Shown: piece after piece, positions 5,350 to 64,000 of the stretch
How the letters are laid out: each line of letters opens with the position of its first letter
How positions within the stretch are numbered: the stretch's first letter is position 1
Source: Actinomucor elegans
Lineage: Eukaryota; Mucoromycota; Mucoromycetes; Mucorales; Mucoraceae
Direction: 5' to 3'
DNA: 64,000 bases
NCBI GenBank assembly: GCA_026027325.1
Contig: JAMSLZ010000004.1
Coordinates: 1 to 64,000, forward strand
Notes under the pieces: model-generated
What the model was told of the DNA's origin: nothing
The model's input: the letters and a program-made list of their open reading frames with translations, nothing else
Database searches by the model: none
Program-made: the position numbers and the translations under genes

Positions 5350-8322
5350 TTACAAACGACTTAATATGCCAGCATTTTGCTCTAGATCTTGTTTAAATAT
5401 ATGATGAGAGATGATCTTGAACTCTTTCTCATTAGATTCACTTGAACGCACAAGACCTACACTGGCAACAATATCTTCAAACCGACAGACAGCGTAACTG
5501 TGTGCACCGCTACTGTGCAGCTCAACCAAAGCAATAGTCTTGTCATATTTGGTAGTTGCATTCTTTTTCGCTAAATCAACCAAAGCCAAATACTGTGGTC
5601 TACCATTGAATGAATGCTCGAAAAAGAAAACGATAGAACCAATGAACCAGCTTTCACGAATGGAATTATTTCGACTATTAACAAAGGTTGGTTAATCAAA
5701 GAGGTTTTTGTTCTTGAGCTAATTACTTACTTCAAGTAGCTGGCAGTGATCATCACGTAATTGTTTCCTCGACGATATTCATTTATATGGCTTTTATACA
5801 TGGTAGACGTATATACATTGCCATATGCCCAGGCACGACCAGCGATGGAAATACTATTCAACGAATCAATTTCAGCAATATTTACACCATTTGCTTCAGT
5901 ACGGCGATAGTAATGCAATAGCGCCTTCAAAAAAGTTTGAGTGGAGACACCAAAGGGAAGAGTATCCACTGAAATATTACTAAAGGGAGCCCATAATTGT
6001 GGATCACTAGCATCACCAGAAGGGTTATTCCTGAAAGTGGATTCGCTGTATTTTCGAGGAGTGATCAGGTCAAGCTCAGTATGAACATCCCAAGTCTGGC
6101 TGTTTATATGATTACGCGTTATGAGTCTTTCCAAGATATTACCAGCGTTTGCGCCAGCATCAACCTTTGACTTGATGAGCTTTTTGTATTTTCCGATGCT
6201 TCTTTCCATTGATCGGGCGGAATATGCTCTCAACACACCTTGTTGTTTGATCATATAGACTATATGCGAAAGGTAGTGTTGAACAGGCTTGAATACACCG
6301 GAATGAATACGCTTTGCCTTGATTTCTGCCAACAAAAATTCTTGCCATTCTTTGATATATCTTTGGAAAGTATGTAAGTAAACTAGATTTATGAGTACAA
6401 AAAAAATATATTTACCTTTCCATCAGAATAAGGTCTTCAATAGAAAGTTCCCATTTAAGAGCCAATGCGACAGCTTTTGTCAGATGAATCAATGGTTTCT
6501 TAGCGGATTCTTGAATCAATTCAGGAACGAACAAGGTGGGAATCATATATAAGAAAATATCAATCCAGTCAACAGCACGTTTGCCACCACTCTTGATAAT
6601 TGGATCTTCCCATTTGGATGAAAAGGATGTCGGTACAGTGGCTCTAGAAGCTTCAACAAGTTTACCAATTTTGATGAGCGATAATTTTGGAATATAGAAA
6701 GTATACGGCCATTCATCAGCAGACTTCAATCGGGCATCACTCAATTCATCTTCATTGGGCTTATATCGAGTTTTTCTTGCTGCATTGTACTCTTTACCCA
6801 TGTCGACTGTCAGCATATTGAATACGTGTTGAGCGATACCTTGTCCGAGAAGATGCATTTCGTCTAAACCAAAAAAAGTAGCGCCAGTAAAACTGGGAAG
6901 TATTGCAAATGGTGTTGCAGACTTGATACTGTAGCTCTATGAGGTAAAAAGAAAAAGAAATGTTAAAAACTTGTAAAGATTAATGCTGATTATAGTACTT
7001 ACATTCGCTGCATCTGGGGAAATGAAATCGTTTCTGCTTCTGATCTCATTGTCGATCGTTAAAAAACAATTATGATAATCATGACGTTCAGCTTGGACAC
7101 GACAAATACGGCAACCAAACGTAGCCATATGACCAATATGATTTGCAAGCTCAGCTGCAGCAGGAAGATCACCAGTAGCCATCACCAAGTTGACTTTAGC
7201 TTGACAAACAATTACACCATCCTTTTGTACAAGCATGCCTTTGGTAGACAGAGCATGAAACTCATCAATAATAGGCTTTAAAAAGGTATGCATGTACTTT
7301 GGGTAGTTTGGACCTGGCAAGATCGCCAATTGAAGCATGTATTCGTCTTGGTAGCGGTATTCTGGGGGAATGTTCATATTCAAGAGATGGATGATTGTTA
7401 ACTTGTCCCCTTTATGATTCTTGCTAGTACAGAAACCATCGACAAAAAGAACCATTGCGACATCATCTTCACCGGAAAACAGAATGCTATTATCCTTAAA
7501 GTACTTGTATGCTGCACCATCAAAGTAATCTTTATATTCACCGTCAGTTGATTTATAGTTGTAGCGGTATTTCATCAAGTCTCTTGTCTTTGCATTCGCA
7601 AGCATTTGAGCGACTTGTTCACCAATAGGAAGCATCTTCATAGAGCGACGAGGTTTACCATGATCATCAAAGCGATTTTCTTTACAAGCAGGGTTTTTAC
7701 ATTGAATAGTCTCTATATCTTCCTTTTCAAACAGCATGCAACCATTGACGCAGACATCATGAAAATGACATTGAATATTGGTTTTTGCTTTAAGAGTACG
7801 ATCCAAGGTATCAGGGAACATGAGAGTGGATGGTAGGTAACCTATATATAATGGGAATAAAAGCTGATAAGTACTTTTTTTTTAACTCTATTTGAATAGA
7901 TACATACCCAATCCATCGGTTTTACGGCTCTCTTCATTGTTTTTGATTATGGTACGCATTAGATAGACAAGTTCTCTTTGAGCCTCTCGAGGAATACCAT
8001 ACGTGTCGCAAATATCTCTCAATTGGATGCTATTTAATTCCGTATTGGTGAAAAGGTTTTGATCCGAGGATTTGACGTTGTAAGCAATTGGAGTAGGCTC
8101 TATTTCAAACAAGGTATATTGTTAAATTAAAAGCTTTAGTAATATATCTGTTAACTCACCTTGGACAGGAATGCTAGCTTCTTGCGTTTGGACGACCCTT
8201 TGTTTTCTATGATCACGATTATGGCTATAGTGATTACTCCTAGCTTTAACAGTTTTGAATGGCCTCAAACAAGTAGCGCAAGTATATTTATATGGTGTAG
8301 CAGAAGAGGAAACTTTGCCCAT
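5350..8322 (-). CDS. Tnp2-family DNA transposase, six exons, apparently intact
   Basis: Exons on the reverse strand are 8160-8322, 7908-8099, 7003-7841, 6416-6936, 5731-6360 and 5350-5674. The five introns are 55-66 bp with GTGAGT, GTATGT, GTAAGT, GTAAAT and GTAAGT donors and AG acceptors. Joining them keeps one frame of 890 codons including the TAA stop. The N-terminus has a C2H2-type zinc finger (C15, C18, then H31/H34). The middle shows VDGF, an IPGP-like LPGPNYPKYMH, DLPAAAE, a zinc-binding CRICR and LDEMHLLGQG. This order is typical of the Tnp2 (Transposase_21) family with a DUF4218-like C-terminal half. I infer that D of VDGF, D of DLPAA and E of DEMH form the catalytic triad. The product would cut and paste its element in the nucleus. 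The gene is head to head with 8728-9810. No frameshift or internal stop is visible, so it may be functional. Confidence 0.85.
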
Positions 8323-8727: not shown

Positions 8728-9810
8728 ATGTCAAACAACAACAACAATAATTGGAGCGTCTACTTTGAGAAGATTGAACAAGAAATCTTAATCAACCGTC
8801 GTTTAATTCAAGATTTGATCCAAATATTAGCACCTCTATTTCCTCGAGAAGCTTCGAGGGTTTCATCTAACGAAGAAATTGAACAAGCACTTGACGATGG
8901 TACAATCATATCTGAAGCATGTTACTACATTCAGTTTTATTAACCTCTTAGCTTGTCATATATAGCTGAACGAGAAGCAATTGCAAATGCTTTGAATCCT
9001 AATTTACGTAGTAAACGGTCAATCCCAAAAGTGCTAGAAGAAGCAAAAGTGCGTTATCAACAAAAGGCAACCAAGACAAATGTCACCCCTTCTGCACCAT
9101 TAAGGTTATATGCCCTCTTGAAACACCTCAAGTATATAAAAGGCCAACAAAATGAACTGACCGATGATGATGTTCAACCGCAATACAATACGTTGAAATA
9201 CTTGGCAAGAGATGTCTTGAAAGACATGGAAAGGGCAAATATAAATATTGTTGGTAAAACTTGGAGTGAAATTGGCGAAGAGGATACCAGCATTCAAGAA
9301 CGTTATGCTTTGCTTTTGGAGAAACGTGCTTTAGATGTGGGCTTGCATCTGCATCTCTGTGTAGAGATGTGGGCTGCCAAGTTACTTTTATCTGAAGCAC
9401 TCAAAAACAAGAAGACTGTACGTACCAGAAGTAATTCTGCTGAAGAAGGTGAAAGTCAACAAAATCAAGAATCTGTTGAAGACAATGAGATTGAATCGTT
9501 CTTCAGGTTAGATGCTTTTTTATTTCTGTTTTTATATCTTTATTAATATGCTTGTTATGCAAATAGTGTGGATAATCAGCATATCCTTGTTGATCGTCTA
9601 GCTACTTCTGTTGCTCCAGTTGGTCTTGCATCTCCAATTGCTAGCTTGTTGGATCTACATTCTGCTCGCTCATCAACGAAAAGAAAAGCCATTACGGTTC
9701 AACCTGACGTTGGTGAAGATGAGGAGGCTGGATCTGACAATCGTTCCAAAGAAGCGGATTCCAATAAGCGTAAACCACGCTCTAAGAAAAATACAAAAAA
9801 AACGAAATAA
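8728..9810 (+). CDS. Tnp2-element accessory protein (hypothetical), three exons
   Basis: Begins MSNNNNNNWSVYFEKIEQEI. Exons are 8728-8899, 8966-9506 and 9567-9810, giving 318 residues. The second intron (9507-9566) is clear. For the first, a donor at 8900 gives a 66 bp intron like its neighbours, while a donor at 8921 also keeps frame, so that boundary is uncertain. The middle is helical and charged (KYLARDVLKDMERANINIVGKTW). The C-terminus is acidic and then strongly basic (KRKPRSKKNTKKTK), resembling a nuclear localisation or DNA-binding tail. I recognise no domain. Position next to the transposase suggests a helper such as a terminal-repeat binding factor, by analogy with two-gene CACTA elements. 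That role is inference. Confidence 0.7.
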
Positions 9811-9969: not shown

Positions 9970-10189
9970 GATAAACATTTACAACTACTTAATATTTTTA
10001 ACTTTCCTAAAAAATCAAGGCATAAATATAATGTTGCCTTTTTATCCATAAATAAAATGTTGGTTACTTGTTCTATTTTAGAATAAAATTTATTTATATT
10101 ATTATTTGTATTCAAAAAAATCTATTATTTCCTAATTTTTTATATATTGTACTATTTTGAACATATTTCTGTAATACTAAATGTTCTTC
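9970..10189 (-). repeat. Module X, copy 1 (220 bp)
   Basis: Left terminal repeat of the dimer. It lies downstream of the transposase frame on the coding strand. It has a run of six T after 'cctaa', where other copies have seven. Confidence 0.95.
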
Positions 10190-10200
10190 TTATTAATTGA

Positions 10201-11678
10201 TTAATTATTTTCTATTGATTTCCAATAATTCAAAATAGTATCATGTGATGTAAAATCTTTTTCTTTTACCCATGAATTATGTTCTTTACCATACTTTTTC
10301 CATTTTACAAAATATTCATATAAGTTCTTTACTTTTTTGTGTTTAATTATATATTGTATTTCATATATATTTTGATCATTATTACTAGTGATATCTTCCT
10401 CCATTTGATCCATAATATCTATATTCACTTCATTTATATTTAAATTATTTAAAAATTGATTTTGTAATGATTTTATATCAACGATATTTTCTATTTTATA
10501 TTGTGTTTTTAATGTTACTTCTTTATTCATTTCAATATTATTTTTATAATAATAATCAAAATTATCATTTAGCCATTTGTTGTAATGGGCATTTTCTTCA
10601 ATTCCAAATAACTCTGTAAAATATTTTATGTTCAGTAATACTATTGCTAATTTTAGCTGTATATTATATGTCTTATTATCTGTTATTCTAATCTTATTTT
10701 GTCCACTAAATCTTTTAAAAATACTACCTAATTCTGCAAAATATTTTTCTATTTTTGACCTTAATCCACCTAATTCTTCATTGAATTTTTTTTCATCTAT
10801 GGTTAATTCAACTCCTTTATCTTTTTTATAGGATAGCAAAAATTTTTCAAGGATATATTAAATCCAATATTACTAAATTTTTCTATAAATTCTTTTACTG
10901 TGTTTTCATATAATCCATCAAAACATATACAATCTATTTCATTATAAAACTTATTGATATTTATGTCTAAAAGCATTTTATCATCAGTATTATTTCTACA
11001 AGGTAAGGAATCAGATATATAAACACATATTCTATTAATATCTATAATAAATTGTGTATTTAATCCATTTCTTTTTAATTTATACGAGAATAACTCTTTT
11101 TTATCTAGATTAATATCTTGATATGTTATACGATTATGGTGACCATCAATTAGTAATGTTACATTATCTAACATCATTGGATTAAATTTCTTAGCACAAA
11201 GTAATCTCAATGTATGTGTAGAAAAACATTTTTCTAATTTATTATTTATCCATTTTTCCAATAAATCATAATTATTTATATATAATGATTGATATAATTT
11301 ATAAAAACTAGTAGATGGAATATACATTTCCATTTCATTTATAGATTTTCCATTTAATAAATGTTCTAATAATATCAATACTTTATCTGCTGTTATATAT
11401 GGACCTGGTAGTTTTATATTGTTACATAAATCTGTCAAAAATACAAATGGAGCAATACTTCCTAATTTAATATATATATTTTTTTTAATTCTATCAATAT
11501 TTGGTATACTCGTTATTTTAGATCTATGATATTTCAATTCAACTTTATATATATATTCATTTTTCATAAATTTCCAATACCTATTGTAAATATTTCTGTA
11601 TTCATTTTCAATTAATAAGTCTATATGAGTGTTCATAAACAAATAAAATGATGTATTTTTATATAAAGAGAAATTCAA
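10201..11678 (-). pseudogene. Chromodomain-fused Harbinger-like transposase, frameshifted copy
   Basis: Same gene as 12482-13960, but a T run near 10826-10832 has six T instead of seven. This shifts the frame in the middle of the catalytic domain, after the second Asp and before the Glu. The two halves are open at 10803-11678 (N-terminal) and 10201-10839 (C-terminal, with the chromodomain). No other difference is visible in the translated parts, so the loss is recent. Confidence 0.92.
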
Positions 11679-11726
11679 TTTTTAATATTTTCTATATTTA
11701 ATAAACTTTTATTTATATATGAAAAT

Positions 11727-12095
11727 TCAATTTTTAATATTTTCTATATTTTCCAAGAACTTATGATTTCTTTTTGCATAATCTAACCATGATTTAAAAT
11801 TATAAATTTCTTTAATACTAACATATCCTTTTCTTAAACACCAGGATTTGAAATATTCATTTCTAACTTTTTCGTTATCATCTAAAATTGTTTTTATCAC
11901 TAAATTGGCATGGATATTTGTATTGTTTTCACCAACATCATAGAAAGGACCACTATATAAAATTTTATCAATATTTTTTATATTTCCAACCCATTGCAGT
12001 ATTTTCTTGTTTAATATTTCGGATGATTTATTCTTGACATCTTTTTTTTCAGGATTTAGAGTTAAAACCACAGCATAATAATAGATTTTTTCCAT
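11727..12095 (-). CDS. ORF B of the chromodomain-transposase element (122 aa, unknown)
   Basis: The frame is open from 12134, but the ATG at 12095 (MEKIYYYAVVLTLNP) avoids overlap with the preceding ORF A and is the likelier start. It lies between ORF A and the transposase in the same orientation. From that start, visible features are a hydrophobic VVLTLNP (9-15), IHANLVIK (H62) and SWLDYAKRN (Y106, K108). Their order and spacing recall motifs I-III of HUH/Rep-like endonucleases, but the match is weak: HAN rather than HUH, and Lys at +2 from Tyr. It is identical in all three copies in this window. Function unassigned. Confidence 0.6.
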   Translation of the reverse strand: MEKIYYYAVVLTLNPEKKDVKNKSSEILNKKILQWVGNIKNIDKILYSGPFYDVGENNTNIHANLVIKTILDDNEKVRNEYFKSWCLRKGYVSIKEIYNFKSWLDYAKRNHKFLENIENIKN

Positions 12096-12117
12096 TAAAT
12101 ATAATATTGATGTTATT

Positions 12118-12396
12118 TTAAAAATAATTCTCAAATATTATAGATACTTTTATATTTTCCAAAATATCATGCCAAGAATTAGATGCCAAGGAAGTTGTTT
12201 TTAGATTTCTCAATGTGATTAAACGCAATGGAAGTCTAAAAATAGGACAAGATAAACATTTACAACTACTTAATATTTTTAACTTTCCTAAAAAATCAAG
12301 GCATAAATATAATGTTGCCTTTTTATCCATAAATAAAATGTTGGTTACTTGTTCTATTTTAGAATAAAATTTATTTATATTATTATTTGTATTCAA
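12118..12396 (-). CDS. ORF A of the chromodomain-transposase element (92 aa, unknown)
   Basis: Starts MNTNNNINKFYSKIEQ inside module X; about the first 48 codons lie in X and the rest in the unique unit. A Cys cluster SSCKCLSCPIF at about 43-53 could bind zinc. A related frame (LHEKAILYLCFLL) sits at the end of the diverged element at 62380, which argues that this is a real, conserved protein. It is the first frame of a three-gene transcription unit with ORF B and the transposase. Function unknown; a DNA-binding helper is possible. Confidence 0.6.
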   Translation of the reverse strand: MNTNNNINKFYSKIEQVTNILFMDKKATLYLCLDFLGKLKILSSCKCLSCPIFRLPLRLITLRNLKTTSLASNSWHDILENIKVSIIFENYF

Positions 12397-12470
12397 AAAA
12401 ATCTATTATTTCCTAATTTTTTATATATTGTACTATTTTGAACATATTTCTGTAATACTAAATGTTCTTC
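12251..12470 (-). repeat. Module X, copy 2 (220 bp, shared middle repeat)
   Basis: Central repeat of the dimer. It serves as the downstream end of one unit and the upstream end, with the ORF A start, of the other. It has the six-T variant, like copy 1. Confidence 0.95.
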
Positions 12471-12481
12471 TTATTAATTGA

Positions 12482-13960
12482 TTAATTATTTTCTATTGAT
12501 TTCCAATAATTCAAAATAGTATCATGTGATGTAAAATCTTTTTCTTTTACCCATGAATTATGTTCTTTACCATACTTTTTCCATTTTACAAAATATTCAT
12601 ATAAGTTCTTTACTTTTTTGTGTTTAATTATATATTGTATTTCATATATATTTTGATCATTATTACTAGTGATATCTTCCTCCATTTGATCCATAATATC
12701 TATATTCACTTCATTTATATTTAAATTATTTAAAAATTGATTTTGTAATGATTTTATATCAACGATATTTTCTATTTTATATTGTGTTTTTAATGTTACT
12801 TCTTTATTCATTTCAATATTATTTTTATAATAATAATCAAAATTATCATTTAGCCATTTGTTGTAATGGGCATTTTCTTCAATTCCAAATAACTCTGTAA
12901 AATATTTTATGTTCAGTAATACTATTGCTAATTTTAGCTGTATATTATATGTCTTATTATCTGTTATTCTAATCTTATTTTGTCCACTAAATCTTTTAAA
13001 AATACTACCTAATTCTGCAAAATATTTTTCTATTTTTGACCTTAATCCACCTAATTCTTCATTGAATTTTTTTTCATCTATGGTTAATTCAACTCCTTTA
13101 TCTTTTTTTATAGGATAGCAAAAATTTTTCAAGGATATATTAAATCCAATATTACTAAATTTTTCTATAAATTCTTTTACTGTGTTTTCATATAATCCAT
13201 CAAAACATATACAATCTATTTCATTATAAAACTTATTGATATTTATGTCTAAAAGCATTTTATCATCAGTATTATTTCTACAAGGTAAGGAATCAGATAT
13301 ATAAACACATATTCTATTAATATCTATAATAAATTGTGTATTTAATCCATTTCTTTTTAATTTATACGAGAATAACTCTTTTTTATCTAGATTAATATCT
13401 TGATATGTTATACGATTATGGTGACCATCAATTAGTAATGTTACATTATCTAACATCATTGGATTAAATTTCTTAGCACAAAGTAATCTCAATGTATGTG
13501 TAGAAAAACATTTTTCTAATTTATTATTTATCCATTTTTCCAATAAATCATAATTATTTATATATAATGATTGATATAATTTATAAAAACTAGTAGATGG
13601 AATATACATTTCCATTTCATTTATAGATTTTCCATTTAATAAATGTTCTAATAATATCAATACTTTATCTGCTGTTATATATGGACCTGGTAGTTTTATA
13701 TTGTTACATAAATCTGTCAAAAATACAAATGGAGCAATACTTCCTAATTTAATATATATATTTTTTTTAATTCTATCAATATTTGGTATACTCGTTATTT
13801 TAGATCTATGATATTTCAATTCAACTTTATATATATATTCATTTTTCATAAATTTCCAATACCTATTGTAAATATTTCTGTATTCATTTTCAATTAATAA
13901 GTCTATATGAGTGTTCATAAACAAATAAAATGATGTATTTTTATATAAAGAGAAATTCAA
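12482..13960 (-). CDS. PIF/Harbinger-like DDE transposase with C-terminal chromodomain (492 aa)
   Basis: Residues 97-134 form a probable helix-turn-helix (ADKVLILLEHLLNGKSINEM). The DDE_Tnp_4-type core shows LLIDGHHNR (D178), CICFDGLYE (D254) and LRSKIEKYF (E311). The last region has the family pattern of a conserved Asn-rich stretch, Arg and then Glu before an F-x-x-F signature. Residues 439-488 are a chromodomain: YEIQYIIKHKK, then EYFVKWKKYGKEHNSW, then ILNYWK. The aromatic cage positions Y, W and W/Y are plausible. The ending closely resembles the chromodomains of the chromoviruses in this same window. It should cut and paste its element; the chromodomain probably steers insertion to methylated-H3 heterochromatin. 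The copy at 46930-48408 has the same protein sequence throughout. Confidence 0.92.
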   Translation of the reverse strand: MNFSLYKNTSFYLFMNTHIDLLIENEYRNIYNRYWKFMKNEYIYKVELKYHRSKITSIPNIDRIKKNIYIKLGSIAPFVFLTDLCNNIKLPGPYITADKVLILLEHLLNGKSINEMEMYIPSTSFYKLYQSLYINNYDLLEKWINNKLEKCFSTHTLRLLCAKKFNPMMLDNVTLLIDGHHNRITYQDINLDKKELFSYKLKRNGLNTQFIIDINRICVYISDSLPCRNNTDDKMLLDININKFYNEIDCICFDGLYENTVKEFIEKFSNIGFNISLKNFCYPIKKDKGVELTIDEKKFNEELGGLRSKIEKYFAELGSIFKRFSGQNKIRITDNKTYNIQLKLAIVLLNIKYFTELFGIEENAHYNKWLNDNFDYYYKNNIEMNKEVTLKTQYKIENIVDIKSLQNQFLNNLNINEVNIDIMDQMEEDITSNNDQNIYEIQYIIKHKKVKNLYEYFVKWKKYGKEHNSWVKEKDFTSHDTILNYWKSIENN

Positions 13961-14008
13961 TTTTTAATATTTTCTATATTTAATAAACTTTTATTTATAT
14001 ATGAAAAT

Positions 14009-14377
14009 TCAATTTTTAATATTTTCTATATTTTCCAAGAACTTATGATTTCTTTTTGCATAATCTAACCATGATTTAAAATTATAAATTTCTTTAATAC
14101 TAACATATCCTTTTCTTAAACACCAGGATTTGAAATATTCATTTCTAACTTTTTCGTTATCATCTAAAATTGTTTTTATCACTAAATTGGCATGGATATT
14201 TGTATTGTTTTCACCAACATCATAGAAAGGACCACTATATAAAATTTTATCAATATTTTTTATATTTCCAACCCATTGCAGTATTTTCTTGTTTAATATT
14301 TCGGATGATTTATTCTTGACATCTTTTTTTTCAGGATTTAGAGTTAAAACCACAGCATAATAATAGATTTTTTCCAT
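14009..14377 (-). CDS. ORF B, second dimer unit
   Basis: Identical in translation to 11727-12095. The likely start is the ATG at 14377, although the frame is open to 14416. It lies 48 bp upstream of the transposase frame and next to ORF A, so one transcript probably carries all three. Confidence 0.6.
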   Translation of the reverse strand: MEKIYYYAVVLTLNPEKKDVKNKSSEILNKKILQWVGNIKNIDKILYSGPFYDVGENNTNIHANLVIKTILDDNEKVRNEYFKSWCLRKGYVSIKEIYNFKSWLDYAKRNHKFLENIENIKN

Positions 14378-14399
14378 TAAATATAATATTGATGTTATT

Positions 14400-14678
14400 T
14401 TAAAAATAATTCTCAAATATTATAGATACTTTTATATTTTCCAAAATATCATGCCAAGAATTAGATGCCAAGGAAGTTGTTTTTAGATTTCTCAATGTGA
14501 TTAAACGCAATGGAAGTCTAAAAATAGGACAAGATAAACATTTACAACTACTTAATATTTTTAACTTTCCTAAAAAATCAAGGCATAAATATAATGTTGC
14601 CTTTTTATCCATAAATAAAATGTTGGTTACTTGTTCTATTTTAGAATAAAATTTATTTATATTATTATTTGTATTCAA
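14400..14678 (-). CDS. ORF A, second dimer unit
   Basis: Identical in translation to 12118-12396. Its start lies within module X copy 3, so X supplies the 5' end of the transcription unit. Confidence 0.6.
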   Translation of the reverse strand: MNTNNNINKFYSKIEQVTNILFMDKKATLYLCLDFLGKLKILSSCKCLSCPIFRLPLRLITLRNLKTTSLASNSWHDILENIKVSIIFENYF

Positions 14679-14753
14679 AAAAATCTATTATTTCCTAATT
14701 TTTTTATATATTGTACTATTTTGAACATATTTCTGTAATACTAAATGTTCTTC
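14533..14753 (-). repeat. Module X, copy 3 (221 bp)
   Basis: Right terminal repeat of the dimer. It has the seven-T variant shared with copies at 18621, 46698 and 48981. The ACT target duplication follows at 14754-14756. Confidence 0.95.
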
Positions 14754-18620: not shown

Positions 18621-18841
18621 GATAAACATTTACAACTACTTAATATTTTTAACTTTCCTAAAAAATCAAGGCATAAATATAATGTTGCCTTTTTATCCAT
18701 AAATAAAATGTTGGTTACTTGTTCTATTTTAGAATAAAATTTATTTATATTATTATTTGTATTCAAAAAAATCTATTATTTCCTAATTTTTTTATATATT
18801 GTACTATTTTGAACATATTTCTGTAATACTAAATGTTCTTC
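18621..18841 (-). mobile_element. Solo module X (221 bp MITE)
   Basis: A full X with both ends (GATAAACATTTA and TAAATGTTCTTC) and nothing else of the element. AAT flanks it at 18618-18620 and 18842-18844. X is therefore a complete transposition substrate by itself. It carries a truncated ORF A start. Confidence 0.92.
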
Positions 18842-21849: not shown

Positions 21850-22404
21850 TTATCCCCTCCCAGGTATGATTAATACCGTCTAAGTCTTTTATTACTTGTT
21901 ACCTTGTAATTACTGCTGCTTTTATGCATATTTAATTGAGAATTAGGGTAACTAGTATTATAAGAAGTGGATGGTATTTCTCGTTTACCTGATAGTAATT
22001 TTGGAGATTTATTAATAACATCATTCTTGTACTTTTGTTTCCAAGAGAAATCCTCTGGTATTACACCAATACGTTTCCAGTATTCTTTAATGAATCTAGG
22101 ATCAACAAAACTCTCACTGGGTTCCCAAGTATCATCTTCTTCAGTATAGTCTTTCCATCTTACATTATAAAGATATTGGCCATTTACTTTTTTATGGGCA
22201 ATGATGGCTTCGACATCGAAGAATTTATCATTGGATTTGATGGGATCACCGTTAACAAGTTTTAGTAATGAAGGTGGATAGTTACGTGGTTCTATCTGAC
22301 CTTTTTCATTTTGTAGTAGGAGAACATGTTTGTGCATTTAAGCATAAAAATTTAACAATTTACATAGATTTCATGAATTATATAAATGTTAGGGTTAATT
22401 TTAA

Positions 22405-22416
22405 AATCACGTGATT
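22405..22416. promoter_or_regulatory. AATCACGTGATT palindrome in module I arm
   Basis: A perfect 12 bp palindrome with an E-box core (CACGTG). The inverted arm near 23440-23451 carries it too. It may be a subterminal protein-binding site. Confidence 0.45.
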
Positions 22417-22642
22417 GTTAAAATGCCCCTAAATTTATGAATTTCATTTTTTTCAGCTTTTTTTTAGAATACCAAGACATTTTTAGAAATCACATGATAT
22501 GATAGCTATAAAACATACTAATTCATTTTACTATCATTATATGTTTAATGGATAGGGATGTATTATATTAAGAGTCTCGTATTTTATTATTAATTAAATA
22601 AAAGGATTCAAAAAATTATTTATATTAAAATATATATTGACT

Positions 22643-23227
22643 TTATTTAATATTTAATTTATTAAATATATTAATAGCATCATCATAATTTATATCCTCA
22701 TCTTTTATCTCGTTATTTATTTTAATAAAACCTGTTTTAATTGTAAAATTTATATATATCTTACCATTACTAATATTTATAGATGGTGAAAATAATGATG
22801 GATAAATAGAAAAACATTTATTTTTAATATCATCAATACTTAAATTTTGATTATTTTCTATATTTTTAAATTTGGATATATTAGTTAATACCAAATACAT
22901 AATTTTTGTATTTTCTTTTGAATTCGATTCTATTAAAGGATTTAATAATTCTACATTCATAATTTTATTTCTTCTACAATACATATTTATTTCATTTATT
23001 AAAACATTTATAAAACTTTCAAAATCAATATGTTCATTACTAGTAATGTCTAAATCTATCTTTATTTTATATGGTTTTTTTTCAATCCATAATTGACTAT
23101 CTTCAAATGCAATCTTTGTATCAATTATGAAATTATGACCATTATACAATACATTGTATTTGTCATCCTTAAATTTCTCTATTAAAAAAGCATTTTTATC
23201 ATATTCTGTTAATGTTATTACAGGCAT
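22643..23227 (-). CDS. Unknown protein carried by module I (194 aa)
   Basis: Starts MPVITLTEYDKNAFLIEKFK; Asn-, Ile- and Lys-rich with no Cys cluster and no transmembrane segment. It seems to alternate strands and helices (YKIKIDLDITSNEHIDFESF, then INVLINEINMYCRRNK). It is the only frame between the 202 bp arms and ends close to the left arm. I recognise no family. It takes the place ORF A and ORF B hold in the 2.5 kb element, so it may be a transposition helper or cargo. Confidence 0.6.
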   Translation of the reverse strand: MPVITLTEYDKNAFLIEKFKDDKYNVLYNGHNFIIDTKIAFEDSQLWIEKKPYKIKIDLDITSNEHIDFESFINVLINEINMYCRRNKIMNVELLNPLIESNSKENTKIMYLVLTNISKFKNIENNQNLSIDDIKNKCFSIYPSLFSPSINISNGKIYINFTIKTGFIKINNEIKDEDINYDDAINIFNKLNIK

Positions 23228-23727
23228 ATTTATTTTAATGTATGTTTTTCAATTTATGTTAAATAAATTAAAATTGGAAATATAAGAGTAATCTAGTTTT
23301 TATACATATATTAATTGGATGACATTGTTGTTATATAGTATGTTTTATAGCTATCATATCATGTGATTTCTAAAAATGTCTTGGTATTCTAAAAAAAAGC
23401 TGAAAAAAATGAAATTCATAAATTTAGGGGCATTTTAACAATCACGTGATTTTAAAATTAACCCTAACATTTATATAATTCATGAAATCTATGTAAATTG
23501 TTAAATTTTTATGCTTAAATGCACAAACATGTTCTCCTTAATAAGTATTACAGTAAATTTGACTGTTATTATTATAAGGAAAATATACATGCTATTCATA
23601 TACCTATGTATCTTTAAAAAATATTCGTAAAATTTATAATCATATATATATATATAAAACAAAAAAAAATTACAAAATCTTTTTTATTTTTTAAGTCATG
23701 TGACATCATGATACGTATCCCTTAAGT

Positions 23728-25131
23728 TTAAAGGTTATCTAACCCAGCATGATATTCATCAATTATTTCTCTATCATTAAATGCGTCTTCCCATATCCAA
23801 CTATTGTAGCTATCATCATAATTTTTCCATTTAATAAAATATTTTGTTCTTTTTTTATATTTTCTATGATTTAATATTTTTTCTATTTCATATGAATCAT
23901 TTTCTATGTATTCTATATTTTCGTCAATTATCATTTCACTTTTATTTAGCATATCATTAATAAATGAGTTTTGTTTATTTCTCATATTAATGACTCTACA
24001 ATATTCAAAAGTTTCAGTAAATGCATCTTCATTATGATTTTTGTTACTTGGATAATTAAATTTATCTTGTATCCATAATCCATAATAATCTTTAATTGGA
24101 ATATTTTGAAGCTCAACAAATTTTTGGATGTTACTTAATAATAATGCCATTTTTAACTGTAAATTATATATTCTTATATTATCAATTTTAAGAACTTTAT
24201 TACTATTATCAAATCTTTGGAATTTATCACCTAATCGTCCAAATTTATTTTCAATGATGCTTCTAAAACTTCCAAAAGTATTATTGAATTCAATTTCATT
24301 ATCACTTAACTTAATTCCTTTTTTTTTTCTAAATGGAAATATAAAATTATCGTTATTGATTTTATCATTTCCATATTTACTACAATTCTCTAAGAAGTCT
24401 TCTATAAATAAATTATAACCTCCATCAACTGCTATACAATCATTTTCATTTAATTTATTTTCTAGTTTCATTGCTAAAAACATTTTACCATCATTATATT
24501 TTTTACATGGTAAACTATCTGATACATAAATAGCTATTTCATTAACATCAATTATTACTTGGGTTCTAAATCCTGATTTTTTAAATTTATATGAATACAT
24601 ATCTTTACTTTTAATTTTCAAATCTGTATAGTTAACTCTACTATCATGTCCATCCAAAAGTAAAGTAACATGCTTAAAATGCTCAGGATTAAGTCTATTA
24701 GCATAATATATTCTTAATAAAATTGTGCTAAACATATTTTCTAATAGTTTATTACATGTTTTATGTAGCTCATTTAAGTTTACATCCCAGAAACTTTTAT
24801 ATATTTCATGAAATGATGAATAGGGTATGTAATCATTCATTTCTCTTATGCTTTTACCTGTAATTAAGTGATATATTATTAGTAATCCTTTTTCAATATC
24901 TCTATATGGAGTTTTATATTTATAATTTACAAATATATTATTTAAAAAGAAAAATATAGGTATTATGCCTAATTTGTTTTGTAATTCAACCTTAATTTCT
25001 TCAATATTTTTTACATCTTTTAGTTCTGTTCTATGTTTATACTCATCTTCTTTTATTTTCCATTCCTCATCTAAAAAATTCCAGTAACTATGTTTTATTT
25101 TATTTAATTCTTCGTATATAAGTTTATCCAT
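23728..25131 (-). CDS. Diverged chromodomain-fused Harbinger-like transposase (467 aa)
   Basis: Homologous along its length to the 492 aa transposase. Probable helix-turn-helix at about 80-115 (KGLLIIYHLITGKSIREMND). Catalytic residues are LLLDGHDSR (D160), CIAVDGGYN (D236) and FRSIIENKFG (E294). Residues 414-460 form a chromodomain (YEIEKILNHRK, then YFIKWKNYDDSYNSW), ending without the YWK seen in the relatives. The last 18 codons and stop lie inside the left 207 bp arm, so the inverted right arm upstream of the gene also holds them in antisense. The frame is intact, so it could supply activity. Confidence 0.9.
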   Translation of the reverse strand: MDKLIYEELNKIKHSYWNFLDEEWKIKEDEYKHRTELKDVKNIEEIKVELQNKLGIIPIFFFLNNIFVNYKYKTPYRDIEKGLLIIYHLITGKSIREMNDYIPYSSFHEIYKSFWDVNLNELHKTCNKLLENMFSTILLRIYYANRLNPEHFKHVTLLLDGHDSRVNYTDLKIKSKDMYSYKFKKSGFRTQVIIDVNEIAIYVSDSLPCKKYNDGKMFLAMKLENKLNENDCIAVDGGYNLFIEDFLENCSKYGNDKINNDNFIFPFRKKKGIKLSDNEIEFNNTFGSFRSIIENKFGRLGDKFQRFDNSNKVLKIDNIRIYNLQLKMALLLSNIQKFVELQNIPIKDYYGLWIQDKFNYPSNKNHNEDAFTETFEYCRVINMRNKQNSFINDMLNKSEMIIDENIEYIENDSYEIEKILNHRKYKKRTKYFIKWKNYDDSYNSWIWEDAFNDREIIDEYHAGLDNL

Positions 25132-28100
25132 TTTATGTTTTTTATATATGTTTTTTTCAATTTTTATTTCATTTTAGCATTTAATGATAGAGAAATAATT
25201 GATGAATATCATGCTGGGTTAGATAACCTTTAAACTTAAGGGATACGTATCATGATGTCACATGACTTAAAAAATAAAAAAGATTTTGTAATTTTTTTTT
25301 GTTTTATATATATATATATGATTATAAATTTTACGAATATTTTTTAAAGATACATAGGTATATGAATAGCATGTATATTTTCCGTACATAAGATCCGCCT
25401 TTGGTTATTCTAAGTACTTTATAAGTTCCAATATAATTGGGATCTAACTTGTTATTCTTTTGAAGCACTTTGACCATTACTTCAGAACCAACTGGAATGT
25501 CAATGAGCTTGTGAGTTTTGTCAAAAGATTCTTTTTGCTTTTGTGTAACTAGTTTGGTACGCTCATAGATGGCAGGAAATACTATTTCCGTCATCATTTT
25601 GACTTTTTCTTGAAGGTCATTATTTATTTTCTTTCGCGTTGCGTTATCTTTTTCTTTACTGAAATCTTCAAAGTCATTTGCGTTTCTACCAAACATTAAA
25701 GTGAATGGTGGTGTTTTAGTTCTTTCATTGTATTTAGTATTTAAATACAATTGTGTGGGTCCAACATAAAGATCCCAGTCAGCATTCATACCATTCACTT
25801 GTTTTTTTATAGTATTTACGCTACTTTGTACCCAACGTTCACTAACGCCATTTGCCCTTGGATGGTATGCACTTATGAGTCTATGCTCGAAACCAGAATG
25901 CTCGGCTAATAAAGACATCATTTCGTTTACAAACTCTGTTCCATTATCAGATTGGATTATTCGAGGTATACCAAACGTTACCATGAGGTTTACTAATTCT
26001 TTGACAATAGATAAGGAAGACTTATCAGGAATGGGTTTTAATACGCAGTAACGAGTAGCTATGTCGACCATTATCAACAGGTAGTTGTTACCTTGAATCG
26101 ATGTTTTAAATGGTCCAGCTAAATCAATACCCCAGCTATCACCTGGCAATGATGCTGTTATGGGTCTTAATGGATTGTAGCCCTTTTTCACAATATTAAA
26201 TTGCTGACACGGGACGCAAGACTTTACTAGTTCAATAGCTTCATTTTTCAGGTTAGCCCAGTATATGCCTTTACGTTTTAATCCATAATAGATTGCATCA
26301 GAAGCAAAATGACCCTTTAAGTGTTCTCTCATTAGGAGCAACTTGCGTTCTTCTGGATCCGCGGGTGTCATATATTCACCGCTGTCATCGCTGGGTAGGT
26401 TATCGATTGTAGCGCTCTTATTATATAGTGCTTTATCCCCTCCCAGTTCATTTTCAGGATGCTCAGATTCGAAGAGTCTGGATAGTGTGTCAGGTAAAAT
26501 ATTGTCGATGCCTGGCAAATGAACGACTTTAAAATCATATTGTAATATAACATCTAACCAATTTATCATCATAGCATTGGCGATTTTTTGTGTGTGTAAG
26601 TAAGTTAATGCCTTATGATCCGTATACAGAGTGAAATGGTTACCCCACAAGTATTTATGGAATTTTTGCAAAGCATACACAACAGCTAGTAATTCACGTT
26701 TAGTAGCGGAATAATTGCGTTCACTTGAGGAAAGGCTTTTAGCCATCATCGATAGGTATTTTATTTCACCGTTTATGATCTGGTAAAGGACAGCACCTAC
26801 TCCTACGTTGGATGCATCCGTAGCTACACAGAAAGGATGATTTAAGTCAGGATACGAAATCACTGTATCATTTAATAAAGCTTTCTTTAGATTGTTAAAA
26901 GCATTTTCATGTGTAATATTCCAGATCTTATCCAGTGATTTTTCATTGCGTAATGCATCAAGAGGAGCCATTAAAGTGGATACTTTTGGAATTAAAGATC
27001 TCAGATAAGAAATCAATCCAGTGTATCTCATGATGTCTTTACCAGTACGTGGACGAGGAAACTCGAGAACGTTGATCAACTTGCGACGATCCATCGATAT
27101 GCCACGAGGAGCAATCGTGAAACCTAGTAAATTGATCTTATTCTGGAAAAACTTACATTTTTTGGGTTGCAGTTTAAGATTGACTTCTGTCAATTTATTA
27201 ATTACTAGGCTTAAGTGATGCTTATGTTCCTCGATAGAGTTACTTTTAATTACTACATCATCTACAAAGCATCTAGCGAATGGCATACCTTCAAGAGCAA
27301 TACTCATTGTCCTTTGCATGACACTTGATACATGCTTAACACCAAACACAGTGCCGATTGGAGTATACTGAATTCCACGCCAAGTGAAATTAAGTTTATG
27401 TGCATGATCAGGATATAGCAATAATGAATTGAAAGCAGACTTCAGATCCAAAGTACTGTAAATGGATGCGCCTTTAAGCTCTTCAAATAATTCATTGATA
27501 ATAGGTAATGGCATACGATCAATCGATTGCAATAGTGCATTAACGTGTCTAGGATCATGACAGACTCGATGTCCTGTTATTTCGCCTTTACCATTGGTTT
27601 TTGGAACTACTGTTATAGGACAATTCCATTCAGAATGACCAGTAGCACGTTTTATAAAACCTTCATTCAACCATTCATTTATTTGCTTATCTACAACTTC
27701 ATGATATGTAATTGGTACAGGATATGGCTTACGATAAGCAGTTACGTTAGGTGGTGTATTAATGTATACCACGCTTTCGGGAATAGTGCAGAACTTTCCT
27801 TTTGTTCTTTCCTCATTTGCTGCTATGAAAGGTTGAATATAACTCATTGCTTGTTCATATTCCTCTGTGGTTCCAGTAGGATTATCGCCAAGCTCATTGA
27901 GTTCTTGTTTGACTTGTTCTAACAATTCACTGTCATTGTTATATCGTCTTATGGAGTCAAGTTTATTATGTTCAGAATTGGATTCATCATACTTTATAGG
28001 AAGTCCAGTTATACCAATTCCAAAAGAAGTCATTAAGTCAATGCCAATACTTAAATCGTAATTATTTGTAAGTTCCATAACTTCCAGTTTACGAGTAAGT

Positions 28101-46697: not shown

Positions 46698-46918
46698 GAT
46701 AAACATTTACAACTACTTAATATTTTTAACTTTCCTAAAAAATCAAGGCATAAATATAATGTTGCCTTTTTATCCATAAATAAAATGTTGGTTACTTGTT
46801 CTATTTTAGAATAAAATTTATTTATATTATTATTTGTATTCAAAAAAATCTATTATTTCCTAATTTTTTTATATATTGTACTATTTTGAACATATTTCTG
46901 TAATACTAAATGTTCTTC
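46698..46918 (-). repeat. Module X, left copy
   Basis: 221 bp, seven-T variant. No difference from the right copy is visible. Confidence 0.95.
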
Positions 46919-46929
46919 TTATTAATTGA

Positions 46930-48408
46930 TTAATTATTTTCTATTGATTTCCAATAATTCAAAATAGTATCATGTGATGTAAAATCTTTTTCTTTTACCC
47001 ATGAATTATGTTCTTTACCATACTTTTTCCATTTTACAAAATATTCATATAAGTTCTTTACTTTTTTGTGTTTAATTATATATTGTATTTCATATATATT
47101 TTGATCATTATTACTAGTGATATCTTCCTCCATTTGATCCATAATATCTATATTCACTTCATTTATATTTAAATTATTTAAAAATTGATTTTGTAATGAT
47201 TTTATATCAACGATATTTTCTATTTTATATTGTGTTTTTAATGTTACTTCTTTATTCATTTCAATATTATTTTTATAATAATAATCAAAATTATCATTTA
47301 GCCATTTGTTGTAATGGGCATTTTCTTCAATTCCAAATAACTCTGTAAAATATTTTATGTTCAGTAATACTATTGCTAATTTTAGCTGTATATTATATGT
47401 CTTATTATCTGTTATTCTAATCTTATTTTGTCCACTAAATCTTTTAAAAATACTACCTAATTCTGCAAAATATTTTTCTATTTTTGACCTTAATCCACCT
47501 AATTCTTCATTGAATTTTTTTTCATCTATGGTTAATTCAACTCCTTTATCTTTTTTTATAGGATAGCAAAAATTTTTCAAGGATATATTAAATCCAATAT
47601 TACTAAATTTTTCTATAAATTCTTTTACTGTGTTTTCATATAATCCATCAAAACATATACAATCTATTTCATTATAAAACTTATTGATATTTATGTCTAA
47701 AAGCATTTTATCATCAGTATTATTTCTACAAGGTAAGGAATCAGATATATAAACACATATTCTATTAATATCTATAATAAATTGTGTATTTAATCCATTT
47801 CTTTTTAATTTATACGAGAATAACTCTTTTTTATCTAGATTAATATCTTGATATGTTATACGATTATGGTGACCATCAATTAGTAATGTTACATTATCTA
47901 ACATCATTGGATTAAATTTCTTAGCACAAAGTAATCTCAATGTATGTGTAGAAAAACATTTTTCTAATTTATTATTTATCCATTTTTCCAATAAATCATA
48001 ATTATTTATATATAATGATTGATATAATTTATAAAAACTAGTAGATGGAATATACATTTCCATTTCATTTATAGATTTTCCATTTAATAAATGTTCTAAT
48101 AATATCAATACTTTATCTGCTGTTATATATGGACCTGGTAGTTTTATATTGTTACATAAATCTGTCAAAAATACAAATGGAGCAATACTTCCTAATTTAA
48201 TATATATATTTTTTTTAATTCTATCAATATTTGGTATACTCGTTATTTTAGATCTATGATATTTCAATTCAACTTTATATATATATTCATTTTTCATAAA
48301 TTTCCAATACCTATTGTAAATATTTCTGTATTCATTTTCAATTAATAAGTCTATATGAGTGTTCATAAACAAATAAAATGATGTATTTTTATATAAAGAG
48401 AAATTCAA
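46930..48408 (-). CDS. Chromodomain-fused Harbinger-like transposase (492 aa)
   Basis: Identical in translation to 12482-13960: D178, D254, E311 and a chromodomain at 439-488. It is last of three same-strand frames. The stop falls 12 bp before the left X, so X may provide the 3' end of the transcript. This is the best candidate for an active transposase of the family, because it lies in a single-unit element with both X repeats. Confidence 0.93.
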   Translation of the reverse strand: MNFSLYKNTSFYLFMNTHIDLLIENEYRNIYNRYWKFMKNEYIYKVELKYHRSKITSIPNIDRIKKNIYIKLGSIAPFVFLTDLCNNIKLPGPYITADKVLILLEHLLNGKSINEMEMYIPSTSFYKLYQSLYINNYDLLEKWINNKLEKCFSTHTLRLLCAKKFNPMMLDNVTLLIDGHHNRITYQDINLDKKELFSYKLKRNGLNTQFIIDINRICVYISDSLPCRNNTDDKMLLDININKFYNEIDCICFDGLYENTVKEFIEKFSNIGFNISLKNFCYPIKKDKGVELTIDEKKFNEELGGLRSKIEKYFAELGSIFKRFSGQNKIRITDNKTYNIQLKLAIVLLNIKYFTELFGIEENAHYNKWLNDNFDYYYKNNIEMNKEVTLKTQYKIENIVDIKSLQNQFLNNLNINEVNIDIMDQMEEDITSNNDQNIYEIQYIIKHKKVKNLYEYFVKWKKYGKEHNSWVKEKDFTSHDTILNYWKSIENN

Positions 48409-48456
48409 TTTTTAATATTTTCTATATTTAATAAACTTTTATTTATATATGAAAAT

Positions 48457-48825
48457 TCAATTTTTAATATTTTCTATATTTTCCAAGAACTTATGATTTC
48501 TTTTTGCATAATCTAACCATGATTTAAAATTATAAATTTCTTTAATACTAACATATCCTTTTCTTAAACACCAGGATTTGAAATATTCATTTCTAACTTT
48601 TTCGTTATCATCTAAAATTGTTTTTATCACTAAATTGGCATGGATATTTGTATTGTTTTCACCAACATCATAGAAAGGACCACTATATAAAATTTTATCA
48701 ATATTTTTTATATTTCCAACCCATTGCAGTATTTTCTTGTTTAATATTTCGGATGATTTATTCTTGACATCTTTTTTTTCAGGATTTAGAGTTAAAACCA
48801 CAGCATAATAATAGATTTTTTCCAT
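48457..48825 (-). CDS. ORF B of the single-unit element (122 aa, unknown)
   Basis: Same protein as 11727-12095 and 14009-14377. The likely start is the ATG at 48825. Three identical copies with no stop or shift are consistent with a maintained coding role, or simply with recency. Confidence 0.6.
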   Translation of the reverse strand: MEKIYYYAVVLTLNPEKKDVKNKSSEILNKKILQWVGNIKNIDKILYSGPFYDVGENNTNIHANLVIKTILDDNEKVRNEYFKSWCLRKGYVSIKEIYNFKSWLDYAKRNHKFLENIENIKN

Positions 48826-48847
48826 TAAATATAATATTGATGTTATT

Positions 48848-49126
48848 TTAAAAATAATTCTCAAATATTATAGATACTTTTATATTTTCCAAAATATCAT
48901 GCCAAGAATTAGATGCCAAGGAAGTTGTTTTTAGATTTCTCAATGTGATTAAACGCAATGGAAGTCTAAAAATAGGACAAGATAAACATTTACAACTACT
49001 TAATATTTTTAACTTTCCTAAAAAATCAAGGCATAAATATAATGTTGCCTTTTTATCCATAAATAAAATGTTGGTTACTTGTTCTATTTTAGAATAAAAT
49101 TTATTTATATTATTATTTGTATTCAA
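48848..49126 (-). CDS. ORF A of the single-unit element (92 aa, unknown)
   Basis: Same protein as 12118-12396. It starts inside the right X, so X would contain the promoter and 5' end, much as an LTR does for a retrotransposon. Confidence 0.6.
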   Translation of the reverse strand: MNTNNNINKFYSKIEQVTNILFMDKKATLYLCLDFLGKLKILSSCKCLSCPIFRLPLRLITLRNLKTTSLASNSWHDILENIKVSIIFENYF

Positions 49127-49201
49127 AAAAATCTATTATTTCCTAATTTTTTTATATATTGTACTATTTTGAACATATTTCTGTAATACTAAATGTTCTT
49201 C
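48981..49201 (-). repeat. Module X, right copy
   Basis: 221 bp, in direct orientation to the left copy and ending TAAATGTTCTTC at the CAT duplication. Confidence 0.95.
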
Positions 49202-57344: not shown

Positions 57345-57347
57345 TTT

Positions 57348-57357
57348 TACTTTTTGA
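57348..57357 (+). other. Self-primer binding site of Z1
   Basis: TACTTTTTGA, 3 nt after the LTR, complements TCAAAAAGTA at 57292-57301. This predicts that the transcript starts at or near 57292. Confidence 0.65.
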
Positions 57358-62379: not shown

Positions 62380-62457
62380 TGACGGACATCTTGTTTCATA
62401 TAAATTTGGTACGTATATTAGGAGAAAGCATAAATATAATATTGCTTTTTCATGCAA
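62380..62457 (-). CDS. ORF A-like frame, left end of the third element
   Basis: MHEKAILYLCFLLIYVPNLY and then ETRC align with the part of ORF A reading MDKKATLYLCLDFLGKLKIL and then SSC. The 'gcataaatataat(a/g)ttgc' DNA is shared as well. The frame runs out of the element into the Z LTR, so it may be truncated. It supports ORF A being a conserved family protein. Confidence 0.4.
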
Positions 62458-62730
62458 AATGGAACAGTTGCCTTCTTGATAATGTTTATTATACTTAATA
62501 ATAATTTTAATTCATGAAAAAAAGTTATAAATTATAAAATATATGGATATATTAAAAAAAAATAGGACATATACAATAGATTTAAAAGATATATTAATTG
62601 TAGATATCCGTCTACTATAACCATAGAGAAATGTTTCTGTTGCTATAAAATTCTGAATTATAAAATCAGCTTAACACTACAATTCTTTTCAAATTATCAA
62701 TTTGTTTGTCATTCCATGAAAATTAAAAAT

Positions 62731-63022: not shown

Positions 63023-64000
63023 ATGGATAATATTAATAATGTTAAGGATACTTTATTAATGGAGTATCAGATTCTAACAAATGATTATTGGAAATTTTTA
63101 AATTATGGTTGGCCAGAGATTGAACAAAAAAAATATCACACTAAAAAGATTATATCTATTAAAAAGATCAAAGAAATTAAAAAGATTTTATTAGAAAAGT
63201 TAGGAATAATACCTGTTTATTTCTTCCTAGTTATATTATTTGGAGATAGAGATTATAGAGGACCATATAATAATATAGAAAAAGGCTTATTGATATTATA
63301 TTTTATAGTAGAGAATATATCAATTGAAGATATGGATGATTATATATCAAAAAGTACTTTTCATCAAATATACAGACAATTTTATTCATCAGATAGAATG
63401 TTAAAATTAAATAAGATTTTAAGTTTTTCTTTACAAAACATGTTTTCAAATATAAAAATTAGACTTTTAAATGGAATGATAGAGAATCCAGATTTGTTTA
63501 ATCAAGTAACAATACATTTAGACGGCCATGATAAAAGAGGTATGGTATATGGTGCAGAAGATAAATCCATATATTATAGTTACAAACTTAAAAAAAATGG
63601 GTTTAGAACACAAGTTGCAATAGATACAAATGGTATGGTATTATTTGTATCAGACAGTCAACCATGTAGTACTAATAATGATGGATCTATGCTTATAAAT
63701 ATGAATATTGAAAATAAACTAAATTTGATGGATTGTATTGCATTAGATGGAGGATATAGCCTATACGTAGATAATATAATAAATAGTTCTGATCTAAATG
63801 ACTATAACTTCGTATATCCTATCAGAAAAGATAAAAATATAAACTTAAATGAAATTGAAATAAATTATAACGATCAATTTGGAAGTTTTCGGTCTAAAAT
63901 GGAAAAAACTTTCTCAGATTTGGGATGTATCTTTAAAAGATTAAATAACAAAAAACCTTTTTTAACTACTAATATAAATATATATAATATTCAACTAAAA
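63023..64000 (+). CDS. Third Harbinger-like transposase, 3' end outside the window
   Basis: Starts MDNINNVKDTLLMEYQILTN at 63023 and stays open for 326 codons to the window edge. It aligns with the 467 aa transposase: helix-turn-helix about 87-121 (KGLLIIYFIVENISIEDMDD), HLDGHDKRG (D167), CIALDGGYSLY and FGSFRSKMEKTFSDLG. The chromodomain, if present, lies beyond base 64000. It is more like the 467 aa form than the 492 aa form, and opposite in strand. It sits within the interrupted 3' LTR of Z1. Confidence 0.85.
   Translation, partial: MDNINNVKDTLLMEYQILTNDYWKFLNYGWPEIEQKKYHTKKIISIKKIKEIKKILLEKLGIIPVYFFLVILFGDRDYRGPYNNIEKGLLILYFIVENISIEDMDDYISKSTFHQIYRQFYSSDRMLKLNKILSFSLQNMFSNIKIRLLNGMIENPDLFNQVTIHLDGHDKRGMVYGAEDKSIYYSYKLKKNGFRTQVAIDTNGMVLFVSDSQPCSTNNDGSMLINMNIENKLNLMDCIALDGGYSLYVDNIINSSDLNDYNFVYPIRKDKNINLNEIEINYNDQFGSFRSKMEKTFSDLGCIFKRLNNKKPFLTTNINIYNIQLK

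Follow-up and report, generated by a model that had tools for sequence, protein, structure and literature searches.

Guidance of integration by a chromodomain is best known from the integrases of chromoviruses. Harbinger-type transposons with chromatin-related enzymes have been described as well, namely, the fungal TET+ Harbinger and HarbingerS, the latter carrying a SET histone methyltransferase (Kojima 2025, PMC12730594). The wider PHIS (PIF/Harbinger-ISL2EU-Spy) group comprises PIF/Harbinger, ISL2EU, Spy, Pangu, and Nuwa (Han et al. 2015, PMC4482050). Long terminal direct repeats have been reported for KolobokP, a group of the Kolobok superfamily in animals with repeats of ~450 or 660 bp, a His-Me finger nuclease, and target duplications that vary between families from 3 to 5 bp, and its authors described these repeats as unlike those of any other DNA transposon (Kojima and Bao 2022, PMC9587614). 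Here, we analyzed a stretch of 64,000 nucleotides from Actinomucor elegans (contig JAMSLZ010000004.1, positions 1 to 64,000; hereafter the window), which is the start of contig 22 in our numbering of a 36.5-Mb genome of 27 contigs, and in which a first-pass annotation had noticed a Harbinger-like DDE transposase fused to a chromodomain. The observation was confirmed and is larger than first stated. We consider it likely that these elements are recently active, PHIS-related transposons that combine an HP1-like chromodomain and a direct-repeat build with targeting to heterochromatin.

The fusion was recovered by Pfam profile search in both complete transposase types of the window. The frames at 12482 and 46930 (family F493) each scored 34.4 bits for DDE_Tnp_4 and 32.3 bits for Chromo, and the frame at 23728 (F481) scored 38.4 and 41.5 bits, respectively, all above the cut-offs of 24.8 bits for DDE_Tnp_4 and 25.1 bits for Chromo. 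Families are named here after the length of their open frame, and L-numbers denote loci elsewhere in the genome. A further frame at 62897 (F504a) gave 34.7 bits for DDE_Tnp_4, with its C-terminus beyond the window edge; this copy, annotated at 63023 as partial, is merely cut by that edge, as its full genomic copy (L048) encodes 490 amino acids (aa) with a chromodomain at the end, detected with a family-built profile. Of the protein lengths first given, 467 aa at 23728 held; with the first ATG as the start, the proteins at 12482 and 46930 have 478 aa in place of 492. In an alignment of 38 proteins, the D-G, D-G-x-Y, and R-x-x-x-E motifs seen as common to these transposases (D165, D241, R294, and E298) showed no variation.

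At least 131 DDE_Tnp_4 matches were found in the genome (150 of 157 candidates scored), and the "small family" of the first-pass annotation is thus several families, but not a small group. By score and frame length, 113 of the matches fall into about ten families, this set omitting 18 canonical-like matches and fragments. The chromodomain was confirmed by sequence in F493, F481, F504a, F504b, and F471, and Chromo matches in frames of equal length and place were obtained for F566, F495, and F505; F486 and F428 lie outside the set of families with a verified chromodomain. Homologues of the fusion came from environmental sequences and from named proteins of Mucor, Mortierella, Entomortierella, Dissophora, Apophysomyces, and Cunninghamella, with those of Mucor flavus and Mucor hiemalis as the closest named proteins in two homologue searches. 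A catalytic-domain tree of 135 relatives held 91 proteins with the chromodomain and 44 without it, separated by nine changes for which gain and loss are indistinguishable on the tree.

According to profile and predicted fold, the C-terminus of the transposase is an HP1-type chromodomain. In line with the annotation, the modelled domain superposes on HP1 in complex with histone H3 dimethylated at lysine 9 (H3K9me2), and the best structural matches are HP1 structures, several of them bound to methylated H3K9 (H3K9me). The aromatic cage is also preserved: the positions of HP1 Y24, W45, and Y48, which we take to be those of the cage and which were aligned to 1kna, are kept in 74, 75, and 74 of 75 chromodomain rows, respectively. 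These rows comprise 69 of 76 homologous proteins (the other 7 gave no match) and six sequences from this genome, among them F471_L007, which despite its label is a second copy of F504a. Such features suggest that the domain binds H3K9me. Such hosts do have this mark: in Mucor species, a cluster of transposons and GremLINE1 elements are reported to carry H3K9me2 (PMC12863538). A Chromo_shadow search for a host HP1 gave no match, but control genomes were equally empty, making this result uninformative. The chromodomain could instead read a different methyl-lysine mark, contact a non-histone partner, or serve dimerization or self-regulation of the transposase. Chromodomains with other partners (CDY, CBX, and LHP1) indeed match too, and binding of H3K9me is here a prediction; with HP1 structures as the best matches and an intact cage, however, we regard such a different job as unlikely.

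The first-pass annotation had also proposed that the domain was captured from a neighboring chromovirus such as element T, on the basis of a shared K-W-x-x-Y...N-Y-W-K pattern. However, K-W-x-x-Y also occurs in HP1, and Y-W near the end is present in 10 of the 15 displayed rows; both patterns are therefore wider than T, and neither points to it. The F493 chromodomain is no more identical to that of T (36%) than to that of chromovirus Z (37%), compared with 33% for HP1; its identity to the domain of a different transposase family in this genome is 58%. A tree of 84 chromodomains, built from 55 columns only and with many forks unsettled, placed 72 of the 75 transposase rows on one side of a 97/97 branch. 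Constraining F493 and T to one group was rejected by the approximately unbiased (AU) test (p-AU 0.018), and with it capture of the F493 domain from T, while a single origin for all 75 transposase chromodomains was not rejected (p-AU 0.5). The chromodomains of F471, P0071, and P0072 do group with chromovirus and HP1 ones, and that of F471 is 45% identical to T. Given that the fusion is common to distant relatives, capture from a neighboring chromovirus is nevertheless very improbable, and it is already disfavored for F493.

Insertion sites of these elements carry 3-bp target duplications, which were found at 34 of 37 sites (26 of 29 for F493 and 8 of 8 for F481), with about 2 of 37 expected by chance. 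The 37 sites are those with both ends in the sequence, including the solo repeat and the dimer described below; nested or cut copies, namely L009, L013, and one L034 copy for F493 and L018, L037, L042, and L047 for F481, were excluded. The flanks of L035 are those of a single site shared with L025, and this copy was counted among the 37 but dropped for the target motif, leaving 25 of the 26 F493 sites with duplications. On these, F493 favors a palindromic C|ANT|G target, with G at +1 in 19 of 25 and C at -1 in 14 of 25. The catalytic profile and the 3-bp duplications place the elements close to PHIS. The PIF/Harbinger label first assigned to them stands as far as the clear DDE_Tnp_4 match is concerned, but the usual companions were not found: a single duplication of 34 is of the TWA type (TTA or TAA), and neither F493 open reading frame 1 (ORF1) nor F481 ORF2 matched a Myb/SANT family in Pfam. 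The Kolobok C/DxxH signature between the second D and the E was present in 0 of 38 aligned rows. Also present in this genome is a Harbinger transposase that scores high for DDE_Tnp_4 and is accompanied by another gene on the opposite strand (L001 and L002, at C8:436928 and C8:190345); no chromodomain was seen in its 437-aa frame, and it offers a useful natural control.

The most surprising addition to the original observation is a set of long direct repeats, each with its own inverted ends. The 221-bp repeats of F493 start with GAAGAACATTTA and end with TAAATGTTTATC, which form an imperfect inverted pair. F493 occurs in the window as one single element, one dimer, and one solo repeat, each flanked by a 3-bp duplication (Table 1). 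The frameshift noted at 10201 is real, but the copy that bears it is not a separate one, being one unit of the tandem array at 9970-14753. Direct repeats of 221-292 bp with their own short inverted ends were found in F493, F504a, and F504b, i.e., in three of the four families with mapped ends. Those of F504a measure 232 bp, with no target duplication seen in its single complete copy, and those of F504b, located elsewhere in the genome, measure 292 bp (an alternative of 297 bp takes in flanking bases that match by chance) and are accompanied by 3-bp duplications in 3 of 3 copies. The fourth family, F481, consists of two modules, one with the transposase and one with a 194-aa protein, each with its own ~200-bp inverted repeats, which move jointly as 3065 bp.

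Because the genes lie between two direct repeats that each have their own inverted ends, the element looks like a composite transposon, which in F493, F504a, and F504b would be assembled from a pair of its own mini-elements. The transposase would cut at the outer ends and join the element to a staggered 3-bp target, and recombination between the direct repeats would yield the tandem and solo forms. Such forms resemble those of long terminal repeat (LTR) elements, and the repeats might accordingly be read as the LTRs of a retrotransposon minus its reverse transcriptase, or as two miniature inverted-repeat transposable elements placed by chance around a gene. Against both origins, the transposase is the sole frame of at least 150 aa in the internal region of F493, the duplications are 3 bp long, short inverted ends are present on each repeat, and the layout is repeated in three transposase families. 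We consider either origin extremely improbable.

The positions of the copies were then compared with their surroundings. An open frame of at least 90 aa lies within 150 bp at 29 of the 37 sites, and 22 of these 29 adjacent frames are transposon frames, 17 by domain and 5 by sequence (L018, L034, L027, L030, and L039). The domain matches were to reverse transcriptase, RNase H, integrase, endonuclease/exonuclease, IS1595 or Tc3 transposase, and zinc knuckle, those to Tc3 and zinc knuckle falling below their cut-offs; the endonuclease/exonuclease family matched at L026 has host members too, and the L026 frame is 81-82% identical to frames of long interspersed nuclear elements (LINEs). Since L025 and L035 are one site in duplicated DNA, the nested count without L035 is 21 of 28. 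Among the other seven frames, those of L012, L014, L015, and L020 are one repeated family, that of L029 recurs in L008, and those of L019 and window position 9676 are short and unmatched. None of the 29 matched a clearly host-only Pfam family above its cut-off, the YabA match of the L020 frame lying below it.

On a larger scale, 79 of the 113 chromodomain-Harbinger copies lie within 50 kb of a long chromovirus frame, compared with 37 of 74 Tc1/mariner copies and 7 of 119 kinase genes, the difference from the kinase genes being large (P = 5e-26). The landmarks were 74 chromovirus frames of ~850 aa or more, hand-picked after 150 out of 364 candidates had been scored; among these landmarks, C12:3154861 is possibly a host gene. 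Mariner copies were those with no stops and a frame of at least 220 aa, which excluded two rows of 199 and 205 aa, and kinase rows were merged by hand from 142 to 119.

Putative targeting to heterochromatin is the best explanation for this distribution. The chromodomain most likely binds histone H3 methylated at K9 and keeps the transposition complex on heterochromatin, so that new insertions would mostly hit older mobile elements instead of genes. The sequence itself shows the fusion, the ends, the 3-bp duplications, the near-identity of the F493 copies, and their frequent nesting; from these we infer an active transposase, histone binding, targeting in place of later selection, and how the tandem and solo forms arose. 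Alternatively, the chromodomain may have no targeting role, with insertions into genes being purged or transposon-rich regions simply being tolerant. The frequent location near chromoviruses of Tc1/mariner elements, a family that to our knowledge has no chromodomain, fits this alternative, as does the absence of the domain from part of the relatives. In contrast, the identity between full-length F493 copies and the one in the window amounts to 99.88-100%, which leaves little time for purging, the cage residues are conserved, and the adjacent frames include no clearly host-only family above cut-off. Moreover, one DDE_3 subfamily is dispersed, with 2 of 10 copies near chromoviruses against 23 of 31 for F493 (P = 0.007). 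Overall, we judge selection or tolerance to be an unlikely account of these positions.

Several points weigh against the combined picture of targeting, direct-repeat build, and PHIS relationship. The proximity excess over Tc1/mariner is modest (Fisher P = 0.009 at 50 kb and 0.024 at 25 kb), the DDE_3 subfamily was picked post hoc, and F481 alone is weaker, with 6 of 10 copies within 50 kb of a chromovirus. The nesting counts stand without matched control transposon flanks, and the copy counts are lower bounds. F481 also differs in its structure, its repeats being inverted and not direct, and its sites lack the C|ANT|G target, with 0 of 8 conforming to C|NNN|G. Furthermore, an hhalign comparison with the canonical L001 Harbinger was not significant (E 0.094, probability 0.6%, over 136 columns spanning the D, D, and E motifs). 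Finally, the 44 relatives without a chromodomain, some of which lack it merely because the proteins are truncated, suggest that the domain is dispensable in some lineages.

A partner protein, ORF1, is encoded upstream of the F493 transposase and has 12 homologues. H62, N64, and Y106 are invariant in 13 of 13 rows, with K or R at 109, and the predicted model is ferredoxin-like (predicted local distance difference test score, 83), placing H62-x-N64 on a strand and Y106 on a helix. By this model, ORF1 could act as a small nuclease of the HUH type, its nicks in the repeat leading to dimers or circles, comparable to the His-Me nuclease proposed in KolobokP. In a viral library, seven matches to ORF1 reached E 0.001, all of them unnamed, and among the 50 matches listed, 6 of the 15 named ones were replication initiators, all weak. 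However, nothing significant was found for ORF1 in Pfam, PDB sequences, or PDB folds, where the missing HUH entries among the listed fold matches do not exclude an HUH fold; in F504a and F504b elements, the transposase is preceded on its strand by no frame of at least 70 aa; and HxN is not the classical HUH ligand pair. A nuclease role for ORF1 is a lead only, and a doubtful one. It appears quite unlikely that all parts hold together, i.e., that a second lineage of eukaryotic DNA transposons has independently evolved an LTR-like composite build, coupled to a chromodomain that directs a DDE transposase into heterochromatin by recognizing methylated H3K9 and to a small HUH-like nuclease, ORF1, that makes multimers. 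In that case, the element would be a naturally occurring integrase guided by a histone mark and sparing the genes of its host.

Table 1. Features of the chromodomain transposons in the window
Feature	Position	Strand	Remarks
F493 tandem dimer	9970..14753	-	two internal units and three direct repeats, the middle repeat common to both units; duplication AGT at the outer ends
Second dimer unit	10201..11681	-	transposase split into two overlapping frames by a frameshift
F493 transposase, intact, first dimer unit (first-pass finding)	12482..13918	-	478 aa from first ATG; open frame 12482-13963
Chromo match in the 12482 transposase	12500..12646	-	Pfam, fold
DDE_Tnp_4 match in the 12482 transposase	12911..13432	-	Pfam
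ORF1, first dimer unit	14009..14377	-	122 aa; predicted ferredoxin-like fold; conserved H62-x-N64 and Y106
Solo F493 direct repeat	18621..18841	-	own target duplication ATT
F481 composite element	22319..25383	-	3065 bp; inside a Gypsy chromovirus frame; duplication TAC
Module B inverted repeat, arm 1	22319..22520	.	arm 2, 23336-23537
F481 ORF2	22643..23227	-	194 aa; second module; no Pfam family at its cut-off
Module A inverted repeat, arm 1	23578..23784	.	arm 2, 25177-25383
F481 transposase	23728..25131	-	467 aa; DDE_Tnp_4 and C-terminal Chromo
Complete single F493 element	46698..49201	-	2504 bp; inside a Gypsy chromovirus; 3-bp duplication ATG (read on - strand)
3' long terminal direct repeat of single F493	46698..46918	-	221 bp
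F493 transposase, single element	46930..48366	-	478 aa; DDE_Tnp_4 and C-terminal Chromo
ORF1, single F493 element	48457..48825	-	122 aa; partner protein
5' long terminal direct repeat of single F493	48981..49201	-	221 bp
F504a 5' direct repeat	62381..62612	+	232 bp; element continues past the window
F504a transposase, ends at window edge	63023..64000	+	complete with chromodomain in L048

Other sequences were also noticed. Two long, closely similar chromovirus frames (window 57312-62105 and 25331-29686) point to recent retrotransposition too, and two Tnp2-type (Transposase_21) transposon genes lie at 6937-7881 and 43497-45098 (- strand) with more frames alongside. A 200-aa frame without a Pfam match (window 8944-9546, + strand) has identical stretches near the L017 and L041 insertions and beside the F493 dimer. 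The frame family of L012, L014, L015, and L020 (325-522 aa) received four F493 insertions and has no convincing Pfam match; it is perhaps a LINE first frame. The frame of L029 (277-1734, + strand) and L008 (2785-3471, + strand) is multi-copy, measures at least 486 aa, has no Pfam match at E 1, and contains F493 in one copy.

A separate occurrence of chromodomain guidance, in so compact a DNA transposase (<500 aa), would allow targeting by a histone mark to be tested through a single-residue change in a short element, and a second, unrelated direct-repeat case offers a further system in which to study how such repeats arise and persist in DNA transposons. Fused proteins exist in several named genomes of the six genera listed above, which already permits comparative tests.

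No chromodomain-fused Harbinger-type family was found in the literature as covered by titles, the starts of abstracts, and some passages, Repbase and Dfam lying outside this search; to that extent, the first-pass annotation was right in knowing of none. The term "chromo" has 0 occurrences in the PHIS paper (PMC4482050) and appears only as "chromosome" in a reference in the TET+ Harbinger and HarbingerS paper (PMC12730594). No chromodomain on a DNA transposase is described in the passages checked from papers listed with "chromo" terms. As in PHIS members, a DDE_Tnp_4-type catalytic domain occurs here together with 3-bp target duplications, and the F493 target, alone among ours, has C...G flanks as in NuwaII (C|TNA|G) and an ANT core as in Pangu (PMC4482050). 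Unlike in PHIS as described there, the duplications are not TWA, no Myb/SANT partner was found, and a C-terminal chromodomain and long terminal direct repeats are present. TET+ Harbinger and HarbingerS likewise associate Harbinger-type elements with chromatin-related functions, but through writer or eraser enzymes, whereas here a chromodomain is fused to the transposase itself (PMC12730594). Harbinger-like transposons of medaka are reported to be homogeneously spread along chromosomes (PMC9179366), in contrast to the clustered copies of A. elegans.

Similar to chromoviruses, the elements pair a DDE enzyme with a C-terminal HP1-like chromodomain and are present in transposon-rich regions, but chromoviruses are Gypsy LTR retrotransposons with a reverse transcriptase, and most transposase chromodomains here form a separate group. 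No reverse transcriptase or RNase H domain was found in F493 and F481 frames. For the direct-repeat layout, KolobokP is the single published match found, although it belongs to another superfamily and to animals, and its text has 0 occurrences of the word chromodomain, the domain present here (PMC9587614). The two systems nevertheless agree in that long terminal direct repeats, each with short inverted ends of its own, enclose an internal region, in that solo and tandem copies with target duplications at their flanks occur (here, in F493), and in the presence of a small second protein (PMC9587614).
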